A stretch of 64,000 nucleotides of DNA from Aplectana chamaeleonis (lineage: Eukaryota; Nematoda; Chromadorea; Rhabditida; Cosmocercidae), in the NCBI GenBank assembly GCA_029168955.1, contig JAPDOI010000210.1, positions 620,001 through 684,000 of the forward strand, in the 5' to 3' direction. The notes beneath the pieces were generated by a model that saw nothing but the letters and a program-made list of their open reading frames with translations, was not told the DNA's origin and ran no database searches. Numbering within the stretch: position 1 is the stretch's first letter; each line of letters begins with the position of its first letter. Positions 6,110 through 64,000 of the stretch are shown piece by piece. The translations under genes were made by a program, and so were the position numbers.

Positions 6110-6531
6110 TTAAACTAACTTCAACAAATAATAATATTACTTATAATAATGATGATGATAATTTATTAAGCAGCGTAAGGCATGTGTGAGATATGATCAA
6201 AGAAGTCCATCACCTACATGCCTTATTCACAATCTGTGCTACGAAGGTTTATGACATTTGTGAACCTCTTGAAACCTGCTAGAATTTGAGGGGCTAGTTG
6301 TATTCCATTCCTAAAAGATGAGCACGCGGAGTCTGCTTGACAGGAGAAAAAAACGCTTTGGAAGAGAAGCTCAGTGGGGGAAAGTCGCAATTCCATACGA
6401 AACACAATTTTATAGGATCAACTTTTGGCGAGAAATTCGAATTTCACGTAACTAGCTGCGCTCCATAACTTCGAATATACTTATAAGTGTGTTAGGCGTC
6501 TGACTCTTAGGCGTAATCCAGCGTGTAAAAT
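6110..6531. other. No feature seen
   Basis: A short AAT/GAT-rich simple stretch at about 6125-6165, otherwise unremarkable DNA next to the mariner insertion. Confidence 0.35.
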
Positions 6532-7581
6532 TAACAGGTTGTCCAATGATTCTTGTCCGAAAATTTCACCATTTTTAATTTTTTTCAACTTTATTGGAAA
6601 GCAAGTATAATCAACAATATAATCACCACATTTATCCACAACAGTGGCCCATAGATTGGGCAGGTCGCCGATGCCCTTCGCCCAGAACTCCGGGGGCTGC
6701 GACTCGAAGAAGTCCGCGATGTCGGATTCGAGGTTGTCGTAGTTGGTGAATTTCCTTCCGGCCAAATGGTGCTTCAGCGGGCGGAACAAGTGGTGGTCGG
6801 AGGGGGCGAGGTCCGGGGAATAAGGCAGATGGGCAACCGTCTCCCAGCCGAGCGTCGCCAACTTCTGCTGGGTCTCCTTCGCCACGTGGGGGCGCGGGTT
6901 GTCGTGCAGCAGGTGGACCGAGGCCCGTCGGGGACGCTTTTCTCGGATAGCGGCGGCTAGTTTCTCGAGCTGATCGGTGTAGATGGAGGCGGTGACCGTC
7001 CTGCCTTGCGGGAGCAGCTCGAAGTACAGCATGCCCTTGGTGTCCCACCAGCAGAGCATGATCTTCAGGTTGGCTTTCGGCGTCGTCGGCGGCTCTTCTC
7101 CGCGCGGGATCCAGACGGCACGGCGGGCGACGTTGCAGTAGAGGACCCAGCTCCCATCCTCAGTGACCAGGTCCTCGAGAATCTCCTTGCGATGCGGACG
7201 AAGGAGGAGGGACTGGCTGACGGCCACGCGGCTCTGCTTGTTGGCGTCCGTCAGACGGTGGGGGATCCAACGGGCCAGAACTTTGTGGTAGCCGAGTAAG
7301 TTGAGTCGATTGTGGATGGTGGACTTGCTGCAGCCGAGCGTCGTCGCCAGTTCACGGGTGGTGGCTTCCGGCTTCTCCTTGATACAGCGACGGACTTCGT
7401 CATCATCCACCGTAGAAGGCCTCCCGCTGTGCTCCCTGTCCTCGAGGCTCGTGTCGCCGCTCTCGAAACGATTGAACCAGCGGCTGACTGTGCGTTGGGA
7501 CACTGCATCCTCCTTGCACGCTCTGCAGATGTTGGCGACCGCGGTGCCCGTGTCGTTGTCCTGTAGCCACTCGTAGTACAC
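6481..7581 (-). pseudogene. mariner transposase, probably without a normal start
   Basis: A DNA-binding N-terminal half (NRFESGDTSLEDREHSGRPS, then CSKSTIHNRL) is followed by a WIPHRLT linker and the catalytic DDE/D domain. The first Asp is in VTEDGSWVLY, the second in HDNPRPH, and the third in YSPDLAPSD. The last two are separated by 34 residues, the mariner D,D34D signature. Cut-and-paste transposition at TA is the family role. The frame has no in-frame ATG: it opens after a TAG near 7628, and the first usable codon is GTG at 7581. An ATA about nine codons upstream sits where a start would be expected. The frame also lacks a stop inside the element and runs through the terminal repeat to 6481. 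These defects suggest an inactive copy. All three catalytic residues remain. Confidence 0.88.
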
Positions 7582-23319: not shown

Positions 23320-23920
23320 AGCCACCGCAAAGCATCAATGCAGAGTGTTAATCGGCCACTTCTTGTTCTGTCCGATCTCGAGGTAACCTTCCCTGGATAA
23401 GGCGAGGATTGGGATTTCTTTGTATAAAAATCAATAAAATTGATCAGGGCATGCAGTTCACGGCTGCGCGACGAAGCGATGAGTACGTGAGGAACTATTT
23501 AATGACCCTACAGAAGTCTCAAGGCTCCGTGGAGACAAAAAAGGTCGCATCGCAAGCAGATTGTGAGAAGACCACAAAATTCGGAAGGTTTTCTAGGCAA
23601 ATTGGCAACACTCACCAGGGCTTCTGGCAGGTCGCTCTCAGGGAGTTGGGGGGGGGGGGGTTCTATTCGCCCACGATTAGCTTTCGACTCGACTACAAAG
23701 CGGTTGTACGACGATATAGCCACGTAATTTCCTTGCGCCACGGGGCCTAATCGTCGTCCAAGTGAGAACCACGTGGCGCCAATCATAGCAATTCCACTCG
23801 GCCACGATACGCTTTCGATTCGACTACGATGAGTTTGGACGACGAACGAGCCACAATGCCCATGATTGAACACGTTGATCGATCGCTTCAGAACTGACCC
23901 GGCGCATGTCAGCCGCACAG
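23320..23920. other. Upstream flank of structured locus C
   Basis: Contains a G run at about 23647-23656 and the phrase TTTCGACTCGACTACAA (23686), echoed as TTTCGATTCGACTACGA at 23814. No gene seen. Confidence 0.3.
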
Positions 23921-23924
23921 CACG

Positions 23925-23956
23925 TATATAAGGGGCTCGATCCCGAAGAGAGCGCA
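23925..23956 (+). promoter_or_regulatory. TATA box and initiator, structured locus C
   Basis: TATATAA at 23925-23931 lies 31 bp upstream of the A in GCAGTGTG (23956), the usual TATA-to-start spacing of Pol II core promoters. The two relatives, A and B, have the same spacing. Confidence 0.5.
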
Positions 23957-24206
23957 GTGTGCCTTTCGGGCCGCTCCTGAAAGGTGACTAAGAGTCACTT
24001 TCTGGACGATTTTCGAACCGCTAAGGGGTCTCCCCACGGTCCTCAGCGAGGGGAGCTCCCTCGCTGTCGACCGTGGCGAAGGTGATGTCCCTGTCGCGGA
24101 CTGCTGTGGGGGTGATCCCCTACTGCGGTCCGTGACTTGGACCGTATCCTTGTTGGGGGGGGGGAGACCCGCTCCCATCGAAGGTGTGGGAGCCCGCCCC
24201 CAGCGC
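23956..24206 (+). ncRNA. Possible structured RNA, locus C
   Basis: Downstream of the TATA box are successive strong stems. AAAGGTGACT pairs with AGTCACTTT (23980-24001). CCACGGTC...CAGCGAGGG pairs with CCCTCGCTG...GACCGTGG (24034-24076). GTCGCGGACTGC pairs with GCGGTCCGTGAC with a G-U and an A-C (24093-24136), and CTCCCA pairs with TGGGAG (about 24174-24192). The first hairpin is shared with loci A and B. No RNA family was recognised. The leader of an unknown mobile element is an alternative. Confidence 0.4.
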
Positions 24207-24475
24207 CACGTGCTCATATCGAACAGGCCACGTGCTGCTGCGTGGGAAACGGGGGTTCGGCGAAGGTTTTGCATGTCTGGGCCACGTGCTTCAGCGTGGG
24301 AAATAGAGTGCGGCAAAGGTTCTGCCTCGCTGCGCCACGTAGTGCTATCGAGCAGGCCACGTGCTGCCGCGTGGGAAATGGGGGTGCAGCAAGGGTTTTG
24401 TCTCTCTGCGCCCATGATCTTATCGAACAGGCCACGTGCTCCTCGGAGCAGCACGTGCTGCTGCAAAAGTTCCTT
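24207..24475 (+). repeat. Tandem CCACGTG hairpin repeat
   Basis: Units of about 50-75 bp begin GCCACGTGCTGCTGCGTGGG and continue AAA(C/T)GGGGGT.C.GC(A/G)AAGGTTTTG. Complete or partial units start at about 24206, 24231, 24280, 24334, 24356 and 24430. Most units contain a self-pairing CCACG...CGTGG. Reading frames over it on both strands are by-products of the repeat. Confidence 0.6.
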
Positions 24476-24479
24476 TCAA

Positions 24480-24860
24480 CTCGACTAGGTACCCGAACAG
24501 AAAGTCTATTGTGGCCGGATCGGACCCCCCCCCCCGACTCCCTGAGCTGGTAGCTTGAGGGAAAAGCACAGGGACTTTGAGACTAAGCATGCGTACCGAT
24601 CTTCATCAAGCTGCGAGACGACTGCGGGCTGATAGCACCACGCCGGTTTTCTGATAAGATTGCGCAAAAAATGATATGATAATGAGAGGAATCTGATGAG
24701 TAGAAAAAACCGCCAACTGATTGGTACATACCTCCTGTCCTAGAGCATCCGAGTTAAAAACTTAACGTGCACACCCAGCCGATTCGAGACTGATCCTGGA
24801 TCGGCAGTAAGCGAGCGCATCGCTGGCAAAAGGCGGGCGGTGCGTGAGCGGAGTGTCTAT
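24480..24860. other. Downstream flank of locus C
   Basis: A C run at 24527-24535. 24800-24870 holds relics of the GCGGGCGG / CCGCCCGCC repeat found at loci A and B. No gene. Confidence 0.35.
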
Positions 24861-26127
24861 CCGCCCGCCAAATGAAAGCAATCCGCCAGCTGTTGTCTGA
24901 GTGTACATCAATTGAATTAATTTGTTATCCAAATTAACCAATCAATTGACTTGAAAAAAAAAACACTCTCATGCTGGTACACAAATATGTGAATATTAGT
25001 TCAACCCATTCACGACCACCCCTAGTTTTGGCTGACTGCGCGTTCGGACCGCATGCAATATTGCGTCGCCGTATATAGTGTCCCACTGGTGGGACACGCA
25101 TGCCCCACCCGTGGGACATGTAGTCATGAGTTGGTTAATACCTTTTCTAATGGATTCTACCTGCGTAACGTCAGTGCCAGGCGCGAATTCTTATATATAC
25201 TATTGTTGAAACGGGAATTTCGGTGTTATTAACTTACCAAAAATGGTGCGGCCTTTTGGGTTTGCACTGGCAGAATAAAAATTCATACCTATTATAATAG
25301 TCTACGTACTTCTCGAAAAATAAGCAAGCCTACATTCGCAGGAATTATGGTGGGAAACATGCCCGGGAAGTAGAATAATGCTAACACTACTTTCCGAAAT
25401 TGGAAAAGGGAGTGTTCACGTTACTACTGTTTTTTTTTTCATAAACTGCACTACACACACGACATAGTCTATGCGCCCGCCAAACTCCAGCAATCCGCCC
25501 GCTGTATTGTCTGAGTGTACATCAATTGAATTAATTTGTTATTCAAATTTACCAATCAATTCACTTGGAAAAAAAAACACTCTCACACTGGTACACAAAT
25601 ATGTGAATATTAGTTCAACCCATTCACGACCACCCCTAGTTTTGGCTGACTGCGCGTTCGGACCGCATGCAATTTTGCGTCGCCGTATACTATGTGTCCC
25701 ACTGGCGGGACACTCATGCCCGACCGGTGGGACATGTAGTCATGAGTGGGTTAATACCTTTTCTATTCGATGCTACATGCATAACGTCAGTGCCAGGCGC
25801 GAATTCTTATATATACCATCGTTGAAACGGGAATTTCGGTGATATAAATTTACCAAAAATGGTGCGGCCTTTTAGGTTTGCACTGGCAGAATAAAAATTC
25901 ATACCTATTATAATAGTCTACGTACTTCTCGAAAAATAAGCAAGCCTACATTCGCAGGAATTATGGTGGGAAACATGCCCGGGAAGTAGAATAATGCTAA
26001 CACTACTTTCCGAAATTGGAAAAGGGAGTGTTCACGTTACTACTGTTTTTTTTTTCATAAACTGCACTACACACAGGACATAGTCTATCCGCCCGCCAAA
26101 TTCCAGCAATCCGCCCGCTGTATTGTC
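24861..26127 (+). repeat. Tandem duplication of a ~0.61 kb unit
   Basis: Unit 1 starts at 24861, unit 2 at 25473 and a 39-bp third start lies at 26089-26127. Each begins with a CCGCCCGCCAAA-like phrase. The units are nearly identical over 600 bp, for example GAATTCTTATATATAC, GGTGCGGCCTTTT and CATGCCCGGGAAGTAG. Differences cluster near TGTCCCACTGG. The shared short unit at both junctions suggests unequal exchange or slippage. Confidence 0.85.
25008..25138. repeat. GTCCCAC palindromic repeat
   Basis: Outer phrases CAACCCATTCACGACCA and, inverted, TAGTCATGAGT(T/G)GGTTAA flank TGTCCCACTGGTGGGACA and a second GTGGGACATG. The same structure recurs in the second unit (25617-25755), partly at 26291-26308, and at 63106-63150 (GTCCCACAGGTGGGAC). 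A dispersed palindromic family. Confidence 0.55.
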
Positions 26128-38679: not shown

Positions 38680-41480
38680 GATGTCCTGCCCCCCTCACCC
38701 TTCTATGACGTCCTTCGCACTCCAGCTGATGTCCTGCACACCTCTCTGATGTCCTGCACACGCCCACTGATGTCCTGCACCCTTCCACTGATGTCCTACA
38801 CACTTTCTATAAGGTGCTGCACACTCCCACTATAGTCCTGCACACACTCACTGATGTCCTGCACACTTTCTATGACATCCTGCACACTCCCACTAATGTC
38901 CTGCGCACATTCTGTTACATCTTGCACACTCCCACTGATGTCCTGCACACTTTCTACGGCGTTCTGCGCACACCGATTTGGGTCTCGCACTTTCTACGGC
39001 GTCCGGCGCACTCCCACTTGGGTCCCGCACACTTTCTACGGCGTCCGGCGCACTCTCATTTGGGTCCCACACACTTTCTACGGCGTTCTGCGCACACCCT
39101 TTTGGGGCCCACACATTTACTACGGCGTTCTGCGCACACCCATTTGCGTCCCGCACACTTTCTACGGCGTCCGGCGCACTCTCATTTTGGGTCCCGCACA
39201 CTTTCTACGGCGTCCGGCGCACTCTCATTTGGGTCCCGCACACTTTCTACGGCGTCCGGCGCACTCCCACTCGGGTCCCGCACACTTTCTACGGCGTTCT
39301 GCGCCCACTCATTTGGGTCCCACACACTTTCTAGGGCGTTCTGCGCACACCCATTTGGGTCCCGCACACTTTCTACGGCGTCCGGCGCACTCCCACTTGG
39401 GTCCCGCACACCATCTACGGCGTCCGGCGCACTCTCATTTGGGTCCCACACACTTTCTAGGGCGTTCTGCGCACACCCTTTTGGGTCCCGCACATTTACT
39501 ACGGCGTTCTGCGCACACCCATTTGGGTCCCACACATTTACTACGGTGTTCTGCGCACACCCATTTGCGTCCCGCACACTTTCTACGGCGTCCGGCGCAT
39601 TCCCACGTGAGTCCCGCACACTTTCTACGGCGTCCGGCGCACTCTCATTTGGGTCCCGCACACTTTCTACGGCGTCCGGCGCACTCTCATTTGGGTCCCA
39701 CACACTTTCTAGGGCGTTCTGCGCACACCCATTTAGGTCCCGCACACTTTCTACGGCGTCCGGCACTCGACTCCCATTTGGGTCCTGCACACCATCTACG
39801 GCGTCCGGCGCACTCTCATTTGGGTCCCACACACTTTCTAGGGCGTTCTGCGCACACCCTTTTGGGTCCCGCACATTTACTACGGCGTTCTGCGCACACC
39901 CATTTGGGTCCTGACACACTTTCTAGGGCGTTCTGCGCACACCCATTTGCGTCCCGCACACTTTCTACGGCGTCCGGCGCACTCTCATTTGGGTCCCGCA
40001 CACTTTCTACGGCGTCCGGCGCACTCTCATTTTGGGTCCCGCACACTTTCTACGGCGTCCGGCGCACTCTCATTTGGGTCCCGCACACTTTCTACGGCGT
40101 CCGGCGCACTCCCACTCGGGTCCCGCACACTTTCTACGGCGTTCTGCGCCCACTCATTTGGGTCCCGCACACTTTCTACGGCGTCCGGCTCACTCTCATT
40201 TGGGTCCCGCACACTTTCTACGGCGTCCGGCGCACTCTCATTTGGGTCCCACACACTTTCTAGGGCGTTCTGCGCACACCCATTTGGGTCCCGCACACTT
40301 TCTACGGCGTCCGGCGCAATCCCACTTGGGTCCCACACCATCTACGGCGTCCGGCGCACTCTCATTTGGGTCCCACACACTTTCTAGGGCGTTCTGCGCA
40401 CACCCTTTTGAGTCCCGCACATTTACTACGGCGTTCTGCGCACACCCATTTGGGTCCCACATTTACTACGGTGTTCTGCGCACACCCATTTGCGTCCCGC
40501 ACACTTTCTACGGCGTCCGGCTCATTCCCACGAGAGTCCCGCACGCTTTCTACGGCGTCCGGCGCACTCTCATTTGGGTCCCGCACACTTTCTACGGCGT
40601 CCGGCGCACTCTCATTTGGGTCCCACACACTTTCTAGGGCGTTCTGCGCACACCCATTTGGGTCCCGCACACTTTCTACGGCGTCCGGCGCACTCCCACA
40701 TGGGTCCCGCACACTTTCTACGGCGTCCGGCTCACTCTCATTTGGGTCCCACACACTTTCTAGGGCGTTCTGAGCACACCCATTTGGGTCCCACACATTT
40801 ACTACGGCGTTGTGCGCACACCCATTTGGGTCCCGCACACTTTCTAGGGCGTTCTGCGCACACCCATTTGGGTCCCGCACACTTTCTACGGCGTCCGGCG
40901 CACTCTCATTTGGGTCACGCACACTTTCTACGGCGTCCGGCGCACTCTCATTTTGGGTCCCGCACACTTTCTACGGCGTTCTGCGCGCACTCTCATTTGG
41001 GTCCCTGCACACTTTCTACGGCGTCCGGCGCACTCCCACTCGGCTCCCGCACACTTTCTACGCCGTTCTGCGCCCACTCATTTGGGTCCCGCACACTGTC
41101 TACGGCGTCCGCCTCACTCTCTTTTGGGTCCCGCACACTTTCTACGGCGTCCGGCGCACTCTCATTTGGGTCCCACACACTTTCTAGGGCGTTCTGCGCA
41201 CACCCTTTTGGGTCCCGCACACTTTCTACGGCGTCGGGCGCACTCTCATTTGGGTCCCACACACACTTTCTACGGCGTTCTGCGCACTCTCATTTGGGTC
41301 CCACACACTTTCTCTGGCGTTCTGCGCACACCCATTTGGGTCCCGCAAACTTTCTACGGCGTCCGGCGCACTCCTACTTTGGTCACACACATGTTCTACG
41401 ACGTCTTTCGCTCTCCTGCTGGGGTCCCGCACAGTATCTACGGCGTTCTGTGGCGCACTTCTGGTCACACCGTGCGGCGT
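38680..41480 (+). repeat. 21/42-bp minisatellite with higher-order repeats
   Basis: From 38680 to about 38975 the unit is 21 bp (GATGTCCTGCACACTCCCACT and variants). From about 38975 to 41395 the unit is 42 bp, made of two diverged 21-mers (GGGTCCCGCACACTTTCTACG and GCGTCCGGCGCACTCTCATTT), roughly 58 copies by length. Groups of distinctive variants recur at about 380 bp and at 924-925 bp (22 units). Because 42 is divisible by 3, long frames of up to 469 codons occur on both strands. Single-base insertions in several units break every frame, so I do not accept them as genes. Confidence 0.95.
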
Positions 41481-49348: not shown

Positions 49349-49590
49349 TTAAAGGCAGGGTTCACGACAAAATCGAATGCTGTGATATCCTCATGGAAAG
49401 GTAGAGCTGGGCATCACAAAAGTGCAAATAAGTAAAAATTGGAGTAAAAACCTTCAGGAACAATTTATTTTTGGTGTCCTCCCGCCCCCAATTATCGAGA
49501 TTAGTGTAAAAGTCAGTTTTGTCAACCTTCACTTGGCTTCTAAAGTGATCTCTCAGCACTTTTGGACACTACTGACTACTCAGACAATAG
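49349..49590 (+). mobile_element. TTAA-AGGCA element, type F4, truncated
   Basis: TTAA-AGGCAGGGTTCACGAC then TGCTGTGATATCCTCATG and CATCACAAAAGTG, as at 54426. The right half is missing. Confidence 0.6.
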
Positions 49591-49641
49591 GTGCGGACTG
49601 ACCGCTGGCAATCAAGGCCTCTGTGGGCGTTAGGCCAGCAA

Positions 49642-49930
49642 GTTGCGGGCGGATCGCTGCCCATCGTGGCTTCGCCTGCCGTTGTCTCCGCGGGCGGATA
49701 GCTGCGTTTTGGCGGGCGGATAGCGGCACCTGGAAAAGTTGATCACGCTAGCGGGCGGATCGCCGGCAAGCTCTGAAGCGACGATCCGCCCGTAACCTGC
49801 CAGAGATCCGCCCGAAAGGGCTTTGATAACCAGCGATCCGCCCGCTGAGCTATGAGATGCAGCGGTCCGCCCGCAACCTGCCAGCGATTTGCCCGTCGGG
49901 GCTTTGATAGCCAGCAATCCGCCCTCTCAA
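49642..49930. repeat. GCGGGCGGATCGCTGGC array, locus A upstream
   Basis: Four units run forward (GCGGGCGGATCGCTGCC and variants), then about six run in reverse (GATCCGCCCG...), with the turn near 49770. The array is therefore itself an imperfect inverted repeat. Spacers such as CTTTGATA(A/G)CCAGC give a period of about 24-45 bp. Locus B has the mirror arrangement. Confidence 0.75.
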
Positions 49931-50012
49931 ATTTCACACGATTAAACTTGTCAATCATTGACGAGTTCTTTTCTGGTATTGGTATCATGCGCAGAGTAAG
50001 CAGACGGAAGGG

Positions 50013-50044
50013 TATAAAAGGCGCTCCATTGCACTGAGTGCTCA
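50013..50044 (+). promoter_or_regulatory. TATA box and initiator, structured locus A
   Basis: TATAAAA at 50013-50019 lies 31 bp before the A of CTCACTCGG (50044). The block GGTATAAAAGGCGCTCCAT is conserved in locus B. Confidence 0.5.
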
Positions 50045-50220
50045 CTCGGCATTTCGAGGCCGATCCTGGAAGGTGACTTCAAGTCACCTTTGAAGGATCA
50101 CTTGGTAGTCGGAGAAAAATTTTTGGTAGCTGAGGGGATGGTCCCCACCGCTAGGGGGGGGGGTGCTCCCGCACACGGGGACCGTGGTGGGAACCATCGA
50201 AATAACCCACATGTGGCATC
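50044..50220 (+). ncRNA. Possible structured RNA, locus A
   Basis: A small stem TCGGC/GCCGA (50045-50063) is followed by a long hairpin (50062-50099) in which GATCCT pairs with AGGATC and AAGGTGACTT with AAGTCACCTT. A GC-rich hairpin (50138-50199) then pairs GATGGTCCCCACC with GGTGGGAACCATC around a G-run loop. Locus B conserves all three. No ORF is conserved. Transcription is inferred from the promoter only. Confidence 0.4.
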
Positions 50221-50300
50221 GAGAGCGGATCGCTGGCTAGTGGCGGGCGGATCGCTGGCTACTGGAGGGAGGATGGCTGGCTACTGGCGGGACGATGGCT
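50221..50300 (+). repeat. GCGGGCGGATCGCTGGC array, locus A downstream
   Basis: Three to four units of about 23-25 bp: GAGCGGATCGCTGGCTAGTG, GCGGGCGGATCGCTGGCTAC, then decayed GAGGGAGGATGGCTGGCTAC and GCGGGACGATGGC. Confidence 0.7.
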
Positions 50301-63150: not shown

Positions 63151-63228
63151 TCAAAAATCGATTTTTCCGCAGCACGAAGGAACTTACAAACCTACATATG
63201 ATCAGAGCATTGACCTGCCCTATTCATA

Positions 63229-63430
63229 CAGTAGGTGCGGGCGGATCGCTGGCTTTTGGCGGGTGGATCGACATCCCCCGCCATCCGCCCGCCAGAAGCC
63301 AGCGATCCGCCCTGCAGCAGCCAGTGATCCGCCCGGCAGTAGCCAGCGATACGCCCGCTAGTAGCCAGCAATCCGCCCGCCACTAGCCAGCGAGCCGCCC
63401 GCCATTAGCCAGCAATCCGCCCTCGATGCC
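63229..63430 (-). repeat. GCGGGCGGATCGCTGGC array, locus B downstream
   Basis: Seven or more units of about 24 bp read from right to left (GCCAGCGATCCGCCC, GTAGCCAGCAATCCGCCCGC ...). The orientation turns near 63282 (CCCCCGCCATCCGCCCGCC). Confidence 0.75.
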
Positions 63431-63597
63431 ACATGTTAGTTTCCGGTGGTTCCCACCACGGTCCCCGTGTGCGGGACCAACCCCCCCTAGCCGTAGGGAC
63501 CATCCCCTCAGCTGCCAAAAATTATCCTTCGGCCTCTGAGTGATCCTTCAGAGGTGACTTTAAGTCACCATTCAGGATCGGCCTCGAAATGCCGAGT
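63421..63597 (-). ncRNA. Possible structured RNA, locus B
   Basis: Inverted relative of locus A. The hairpin at 63542-63579 keeps GATCCT/AGGATC and GGTGACTT/AAGTCACC while the joining bases differ. The GC-rich hairpin GGACCATCCCCTCAGC side and GGTTCCCACCACGG side is also kept. Conservation of the paired parts between A and B favours a structured product, though only about 180 bp are compared. Confidence 0.4.
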
Positions 63598-63628
63598 GAG
63601 CAGTCAGTGCGATGGAGCGCCTTTTATA
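63597..63628 (-). promoter_or_regulatory. TATA box and initiator, structured locus B
   Basis: On the minus strand TATAAAA (63622-63628) is 31 bp before the A of CTCACTCGG (63597), exactly as in locus A. Confidence 0.5.
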
Positions 63629-63711
63629 CCCTTCGGTTTGTTTACTCTGAGCATGATACAGATAACAGAAAAGAACTCGTCAATGATTGACAAGTTTCAC
63701 CGTGTAAAATG

Positions 63712-64000
63712 CGAGCGGGCGGATCGCTGGCTATCAAAGCAGTGGCGGGCGGATCGCTGGCTATCAAAGCTCTGGCGGGCGGATCGCTGGCAGGTTGCGG
63801 GCGAATCGCTGCATCTCATAGCTCAGCGGGCGGATCGCTGGCCATCAAAGCCCTTGCGGGCGAATCGCTGGCAGGTTGCGGGTGGATCGCCGCTTCAGAG
63901 CTTGCCAGCTATCCGCCCGCTAGCGTGATCAACTTTCCCAGGTGCCGCTATCCGCCCGCCAAAACGCAGCGATCCGCCCGCAACTTGCAGGCGTACCACC
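63712..64000 (-). repeat. GCGGGCGGATCGCTGGC array, locus B upstream
   Basis: About seven forward units (GCGGGCGGATCGCTGGCTAT, CAAAGC spacers) followed by about three reversed ones after 63905. This is the mirror of the array at 49642-49930. It runs to the window edge. Confidence 0.75.

Follow-up and report, generated by a model that had tools for sequence, protein, structure and literature searches.

Short gene-less transposons of the nematode Aplectana chamaeleonis with a common promoter and hairpin-leader core

Three loci in a 64,000-nt stretch of the Aplectana chamaeleonis genome (the window, meaning the whole stretch of DNA analysed here; source assembly, 1.0366 Gb) display the same succession of a TATA box, an initiator-like A, hairpins, and short-unit repeat arrays. 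What kind of unit carries this plan, and where does the plan come from? An earlier note, which named the loci C, A, and B, offered three candidates: a Pol II transcript with a folded structure, an origin of double-stranded RNA, and the leader of an unknown retroelement. The structural, genomic, and comparative analyses described below led us to regard the three loci as copies of high-copy, gene-less cut-and-paste DNA transposons with a core presumably inherited from an autonomous parent, a reading to which we assign a probability of roughly 0.8.

Layout common to the three loci

The 31-nt spacing claimed between the TATA box and the A was read directly from the sequence and was correct at all three loci (Table 1). 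Downstream of each inferred start, a short stem is followed by hairpin 1, which carries the palindrome GGTGACTNNNAGTCACC (with one mismatch in C), and then by further GC-rich hairpins. The proposal of a common hairpin palindrome was borne out, as GGTGACTNNNAGTCACC has four matches in the window at up to two mismatches (0.11 expected), three of which are loci A, B, and C. A and B are largely alike, as claimed (84% over 632 alignment columns). C was likewise described properly as keeping the layout and hairpin 1 and differing elsewhere: the 76–79 nt from the TATA box to hairpin 1 can be aligned to A/B at 73–75%. The A–C alignment scored 52, whereas A set against 5882 random places never scored above 27. 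The B–C alignment scored 57, the null having been made for A only.

Folding of the leaders, a check suggested in the earlier note, showed them to be more stable than shuffled sequences, with z values of -2.8 (A), -3.6 (B), and -4.3 and -5.1 for two stretches of C. Two more stretches of C, lying over arrays, did not fold more strongly than shuffles (z +0.85 and -1.0). In A, the 5' arm GATGGTCCCC within 50138–50199 is able to pair with either of two downstream segments, and hairpin 3 could thus switch. A dyad, CTTGTCAATCATTGACGAG, is identical in A (49947–49965) and B (63676–63694), lies 5' of the TATA box, and is a candidate factor-binding site. No known RNA family had been recognised, in agreement with an Rfam search of the window (0 matches at gathering scores). 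The covariance model of A, B, and C, another suggested check, recovered the three loci, with weak opposite-strand matches at the same places; otherwise it gave nothing better than an E-value of 0.24. Repeats ahead of the promoter, reported for A and B, are present there and also in C. The locus bounds given earlier required revision, as they cut through the units that are delimited in Table 1.

Table 1. Features of elements C, A, and B, in positions of the window
Feature	Position	Strand	Basis or remark
Target-site duplication CT, left of C	23635..23636	.	CT/CT flanks
Element C, complete, 910 bp, non-autonomous TIR transposon	23637..24546	+	ends same as in genome copies
TATA box of C, inferred start 23956 (the A named earlier)	23925..23931	+	sequence
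Hairpin 1 of C, CCTGAAAGGTGACT aag AGTCACTTTCTGG	23975..24006	+	fold, palindrome search
GC-rich hairpin 2 of C, CCACGGTC...GACCGTGG	24034..24076	+	fold
Long GC-rich hairpin 3 of C	24087..24142	+	fold, z -5.1 for 24085-24230
Downstream array of C with a period of ~75 and units around CCACGTGCTGC...GCGTGGGAAA	24203..24457	+	
Target-site duplication CT, right of C	24547..24548	.	CT/CT flanks
TA flanking left end of A	49577..49578	.	
Element A, left TIR present, right TIR missing	49579..50300	+	
Upstream subterminal array of A, forward then inverted GGCGGGCGGATCGCTGGC units	49644..49927	+	
TATA box of A, inferred start 50044 (the A named earlier)	50013..50019	+	sequence
Hairpin 1 of A, GATCCT...AGGATC around GGTGACTTCAAGTCACC	50062..50099	+	fold, palindrome search
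Hairpin 2 of A	50101..50134	+	fold
GC-rich hairpin 3 of A	50138..50185	+	5' arm alternatively pairs up to ~50199
Downstream 22-bp array of A	50220..50300	+	
TA duplication at B	63221..63222 (right); 64048-64049 (beyond left end)	.	
Element B, complete	63223..64000 in the window; left end outside at 64047	-	
Downstream 22-bp array of B	63277..63425	-	
Hairpin 1 of B	63542..63579	-	fold, palindrome search
TATA box of B, starting at 63628; inferred start 63597 (the A named earlier)	63622..63628	-	sequence
Upstream subterminal array of B	63714..63982	-	

Other repeats and one coding frame lie in the same window. A mariner transposase frame at 6481–7581 on the minus strand is closest, among the matches listed, to strongylid nematode proteins: it is 85% identical to a Nippostrongylus brasiliensis protein over 89%, and the 120 matches listed include three from Heligmosomoides at 90–95% over 24–37% and a fourth at 55% over 76%. 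At 38706–41446 there is a 2.7-kb minisatellite of 42-bp units, in which several frames are kept open; similar arrays occur in two genome loci (L062 and L021).

Ends, target sites, and copies of the elements

The ends of C are formed by CTCAGGGAGT at 23637–23646 and its inverted copy at 24537–24546, with no other exact copies in the window. By themselves the inverted ends are not beyond chance (20 of 1916 random places in the window score as high). In a window so rich in repeats they are indecisive alone, and the bounds of the element were thus settled by the copies in the genome. A search with a 286-bp query from C gave 2521 loose candidates; with C itself set aside, the 39 full-length matches scored among these are 94–97% identical to C. 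The terminal inverted repeats (TIRs) were found at both ends in 28 of 30 loci, with element lengths of 766–1053 bp. Among the 27 copies with CTC at both ends, 22 have a 2-bp target-site duplication (3.23 expected), and a flank match of 4 bp or more occurs in none of the 27. The duplicated sites are TT (6), TA (6), AA (3), CT (2), GA (2), TC (1), AC (1), and TG (1). The target flanks are palindromic around the duplication: out of the 27 copies, 18 have a C at position -4 and 22 have a G at position +4. The duplication and the target pattern support cut-and-paste insertion and exclude strict TA users. A decayed 9-bp duplication considered for C (7 of 9 letters) was dropped, as the 30 copies show 2 bp. 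The exact end pattern of C occurs at 320 places in the genome, and its backward control at none.

Some C copies have a complex setting. A second C core lies within ~0.8 kb in four of the 30 loci (L045, L046, L051, and L059), which suggests nested or clustered insertion, and in L061 a C element is split at two positions by pieces of a non-LTR retrotransposon that resemble each other and have disrupted reverse-transcriptase frames. Just past C in the window, at 24857–26118, three short blocks stand ~616 bp apart, each with a unit like GGCGGGCGGATTGCTGG, as in the A/B arrays; the two 300-bp stretches between the blocks are 95% alike.

Querying the genome with 196 bp of A yielded 2401 loose candidates; the best 40 were scored, and all of them other than A itself are 89–93% identical. 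When 30 loci of 3.2 kb were compared, the shared sequence stopped sharply on both sides in 27; the remaining three (L010, L027, and L030) share with these 27 a segment of ~255 bp alone, from about -47 to about +211 nt of the TATA anchor. The TIR of A/B is CTCAGACA(A/G)TAGGTGCGG, and of the 27 loci 26 have it on the left and 25 on the right; the 24 with both ends are 653–945 bp long. The right end of B was placed by comparison with A and other copies, and its left TIR was read in locus L076. The flanking dinucleotides are identical in 18 of the 24 copies with both ends. With CTC required at both ends, 16 of 18 copies are duplicated, compared to 5.76 expected when flanks are swapped between copies, and no flank match of 4 bp or more was found in the 18. 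Ahead of the core the GGCGGGCGGATCGCTGGC units are first forward and then inverted, and behind it most are forward. This order, with a variable number of units, holds in 10 of 11 displayed copies; the exception (L005) has two units after the core, both inverted. The measured copies of A/B and C are thus dispersed elements of 0.65–1.05 kb with TIRs that start with CTCAG and a 2-bp duplication.

Families, coding capacity, and hairpin pairing

The central core, whole or in part, recurs in at least five families that differ in their ends and arrays. The plan shown by the copies of A/B and C is a TIR, a short-unit array, the TATA box and initiator, the structured leader, a second array, and a TIR. 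Family D, known from the three copies that diverge from A/B (L010, L027, and L030), has ends like CTCTGAGAATTTTTGCATGG and arrays unlike those of A/B; inspection gave the duplications TT and TC in two copies, whereas in the third, changes in the left end prevent a reading. The covariance model first brought out family E in L035, next to a C copy that itself lies inside an E element. Its ends, CTCAGACATTGGGAGC, were both found in eight of ten loci, and seven of these eight have 2-bp duplications; the genome search gave 1828 loose candidates, and the exact end pattern occurs at 507 places (backward control, 0). An Rfam search of the E stretch L035:2080-2700 gave no match at E up to 1. Family F is known from one copy nested in an E copy (L075:464-1731), with ends CTCAGGTACTCAGGGCG and the duplication CG/CG. 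In this copy the hairpins are present and the TATA box is absent at the expected place, which does not agree with a simple inherited promoter. The candidate sets of A, C, and E, part of which was scored, may have members in common, as the families share the core. The usual terminus is CTCAG or CTCTG in each family, and CAC is the rule in none.

The core is ~90% alike between A/B and D, most flanks of which cannot be aligned, and ~70–80% similar in E; C shares its first part, and F shares it without the TATA box. Among 70 copies of A/B-D, C, and E, eight have no scored TATA box, and in all of the other 62 the distance from the TATA box to hairpin 1 is 54–55 nt.

No transposase gene was found inside the elements. 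Downstream of the start, no ATG-begun sense frame exceeds 100 codons in 30 C copies or 75 in 30 A/B-D copies. Open frames without ATG are longer (C, 166 codons sense and 185 antisense; A, 172; B, 143 antisense); across A, B, and C they matched no Pfam family above the cut-off, with one Plectin-repeat match below it, and a protein search with an antisense frame of B gave seven candidates, none at E up to 1. The Pfam search for PF02992 (Transposase_21) found no match and likewise none in 14 control genomes, and is thus uninformative. In viral contigs, the 19-nt TATA-region pattern occurs at 0 places.

An autonomous element or transposase was not found in the four far-apart TIR pairs that were read among the listed first part of the 320 C and 507 E end places; three listed E pairs ~1.6–2.0 kb apart lie outside this set. 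All four pairs are elements interrupted by other sequence. In the 4.8-kb C pair, non-LTR retrotransposon pieces break up a C element; the 6.0-kb E stretch holds several E-related pieces, the 2.4-kb E pair is an E element with an insert, and the 2.1-kb E pair is an E element with F nested inside. In L074, an insert of ~1.5 kb lies inside an E element (~282–1827 of the reverse complement).

The core was further analysed for selection on pairing. The earlier note had held that the paired segments are the parts kept best, which the copies did not confirm. Divergence at paired and unpaired sites is 3.9% and 3.7%, respectively, among 31 close A/B-D cores, or 4.3% and 3.9% with a structure made without the alignment, and in 30 C copies the paired sites diverge slightly more (2.0% compared to 1.4%). 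Pairing and covariation in the 31 A/B-D cores equal those in shuffles within noise, and changes on both sides of a pair inside families number 0–1, as in shuffles. The 30 C copies show no such change, and their single changes keep pairing in 46 of 119 cases (0.387, compared to 0.385 by chance). In A/B-D, single changes keep pairing at 0.66, compared to 0.32 expected, when the structure is derived from the alignment. If the structure is instead taken from folding the majority sequence to minimum energy, the values are 0.39 and 0.31 (counting cells), or 27 of 92 (0.29) for distinct changes. The excess was not counted as support, since the structure had been chosen from the same alignment and the excess shrinks with the other fold.

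Between families, hairpin 1 of one E sequence was set against that of three A/B copies (A and B among them) and of two D copies. Of the 15 pairs in this hairpin, two have changed on both sides and still pair, a result reached by 16 of 500 shuffles. The letters at these two pairs are the same in ten of ten E copies and in F, and the double changes may thus be one event, common by descent. Across families, the 5' arm of hairpin 1 is nearly invariant, and the 3' arm varies yet still pairs. Taken together, there is no clear sign of selection on RNA structure inside families, and the sign between families is weakly positive. Dead copies would decay alike whether or not the parent was constrained.

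Origin of the core and comparison with known systems

We presume that a transposase made elsewhere would bind the ends, and probably the arrays too, and would move the elements by cut and paste. The core would be the promoter and 5' leader of the autonomous parent, retained in deletion derivatives, and if transcribed it would yield a short non-coding RNA beginning with hairpins. As no autonomous copy or transposase was found among the TIR pairs read, mobilisation in trans and parental inheritance are inferences. For the putative transcript of the earlier note, the anatomy is supported, namely a TATA box and initiator with a structured leader, and this anatomy recurs in other families. The note had also listed an origin from within a known transposon among the outcomes that would refute its proposal; all three loci do sit inside transposons, but of the cut-and-paste TIR kind.

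A retroelement leader, the last of its candidates, was rejected on the ends and duplications of the loci, these being TIR elements that duplicate 2 bp of the target. A TATA box ~31 nt before the initiator and a hairpin directly after it resemble LTR R regions, which would suggest solo LTRs or an LTR-retrotransposon leader, with the TATA box in U3 and the hairpins in R. However, the ends are CTCAG...CTGAG instead of TG...CA, the duplication is 2 bp and not the 4–6 bp of LTR elements, and the arrays are inverted around the core, all of which makes this origin barely conceivable. The strong hairpins and inverted arrays would also suit a core from which the worm draws double-stranded RNA or siRNA for its own use. 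A precedent is described for the strongylid Heligmosomoides bakeri, in which vesicle siRNAs are traced partly to novel repeats and are enriched for transposons and species-specific repeats (PMC6468290). However, guides derived from solo LTRs are reported to be preferred in a later study (PMC13195028), and we consider such a use of the core quite improbable.

The core may instead have been kept for a function, with its promoter or its leader (as RNA or as a DNA palindrome) aiding the elements, for example by open chromatin, by protein binding, or by evading small-RNA silencing, and with families keeping or exchanging it. The presence of the core in five families with different ends and arrays argues for this possibility, as do the constant spacing in all 62 scored copies, the near-invariant 5' arm of hairpin 1 facing a changed arm that still pairs, the retention of the hairpins without TATA box in F, and the excess of pair-keeping single changes in A/B-D under the alignment-derived structure. 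However, this excess falls when the structure is made free of the alignment, the C copies keep pairs at the chance level and show no change on both sides, and the double changes between families are just two, which E and F may share by descent. We thus take a functional core to be possible, if rather unlikely. It is more doubtful still that a promoter-leader module was passed between families and that the elements make use of its RNA or DNA palindrome as a part of their machinery, such as a cis- or trans-acting RNA that recruits transposase or blocks silencing, in which case the ends and arrays would turn over and the leader would stay.

The preferred reading, namely deletion derivatives of a cut-and-paste parent, can be set beside several known systems. 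Foldback elements have inverted arms of short tandem repeats and 9-bp duplications, and MULEs make 8–9-bp duplications; the present elements resemble foldback elements in their inverted short-repeat arrays and differ in their 2-bp duplication. Many A/B insertions are at TA, as in MITEs of the Tc1/mariner kind, whereas TA makes up just 6 of the 22 duplicated sites in C. The present elements are short and non-coding and have TIRs, a fixed duplication length, and a high copy number, like MITEs and other non-autonomous TIR elements in general; the difference lies in the central TATA/initiator and multi-hairpin leader common to families with different ends. Non-coding arrays of short tandem repeats that diverge fast and differ between related families are reported for VANDAL MULEs with VANC targets (PMC10398659). 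The arrays here also change fast, but the duplication is 2 bp and no anti-silencing protein was seen.

The closest resemblance may be to CACTA (En/Spm)/CMC elements, with which the present elements share a short duplication, direct and inverted subterminal motifs (in A/B), and deletion derivatives. The subterminal motif arrays of Spm, direct and inverted, are described as binding an element-encoded protein and as varying between families (PMC2613891), and by analogy with Spm TNPA the present arrays are probable protein-binding sites. Elements of the CMCT group are reported to have target-site duplications of 2–5 bp and mostly CA...TG ends (PMC12730594). The ends here are CTC[A/T]G, not CAC or CA, and a transposase was not found; given the CTC ends, we do not file the elements in CMCT despite their plan and duplication length. 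A Repbase rule assigns non-autonomous elements by equal duplication length and at most one mismatch in positions 1–11 (PMC4455052). Over these positions A/B differs from E at two and from C at three, which exceeds the rule, and a common superfamily for the families is thus suggested, not established.

A limited literature search found no counterpart of the shared promoter-leader core in such elements. A promoter and structured leader are not expected as something that non-coding DNA transposons need for movement, and the same core in at least five families raises the question of whether descent from a common parent alone explains it or whether selection acts on it. A core this frequent would amount to a large pool of potential Pol II starts and hairpin RNA in a strongylid-type genome.
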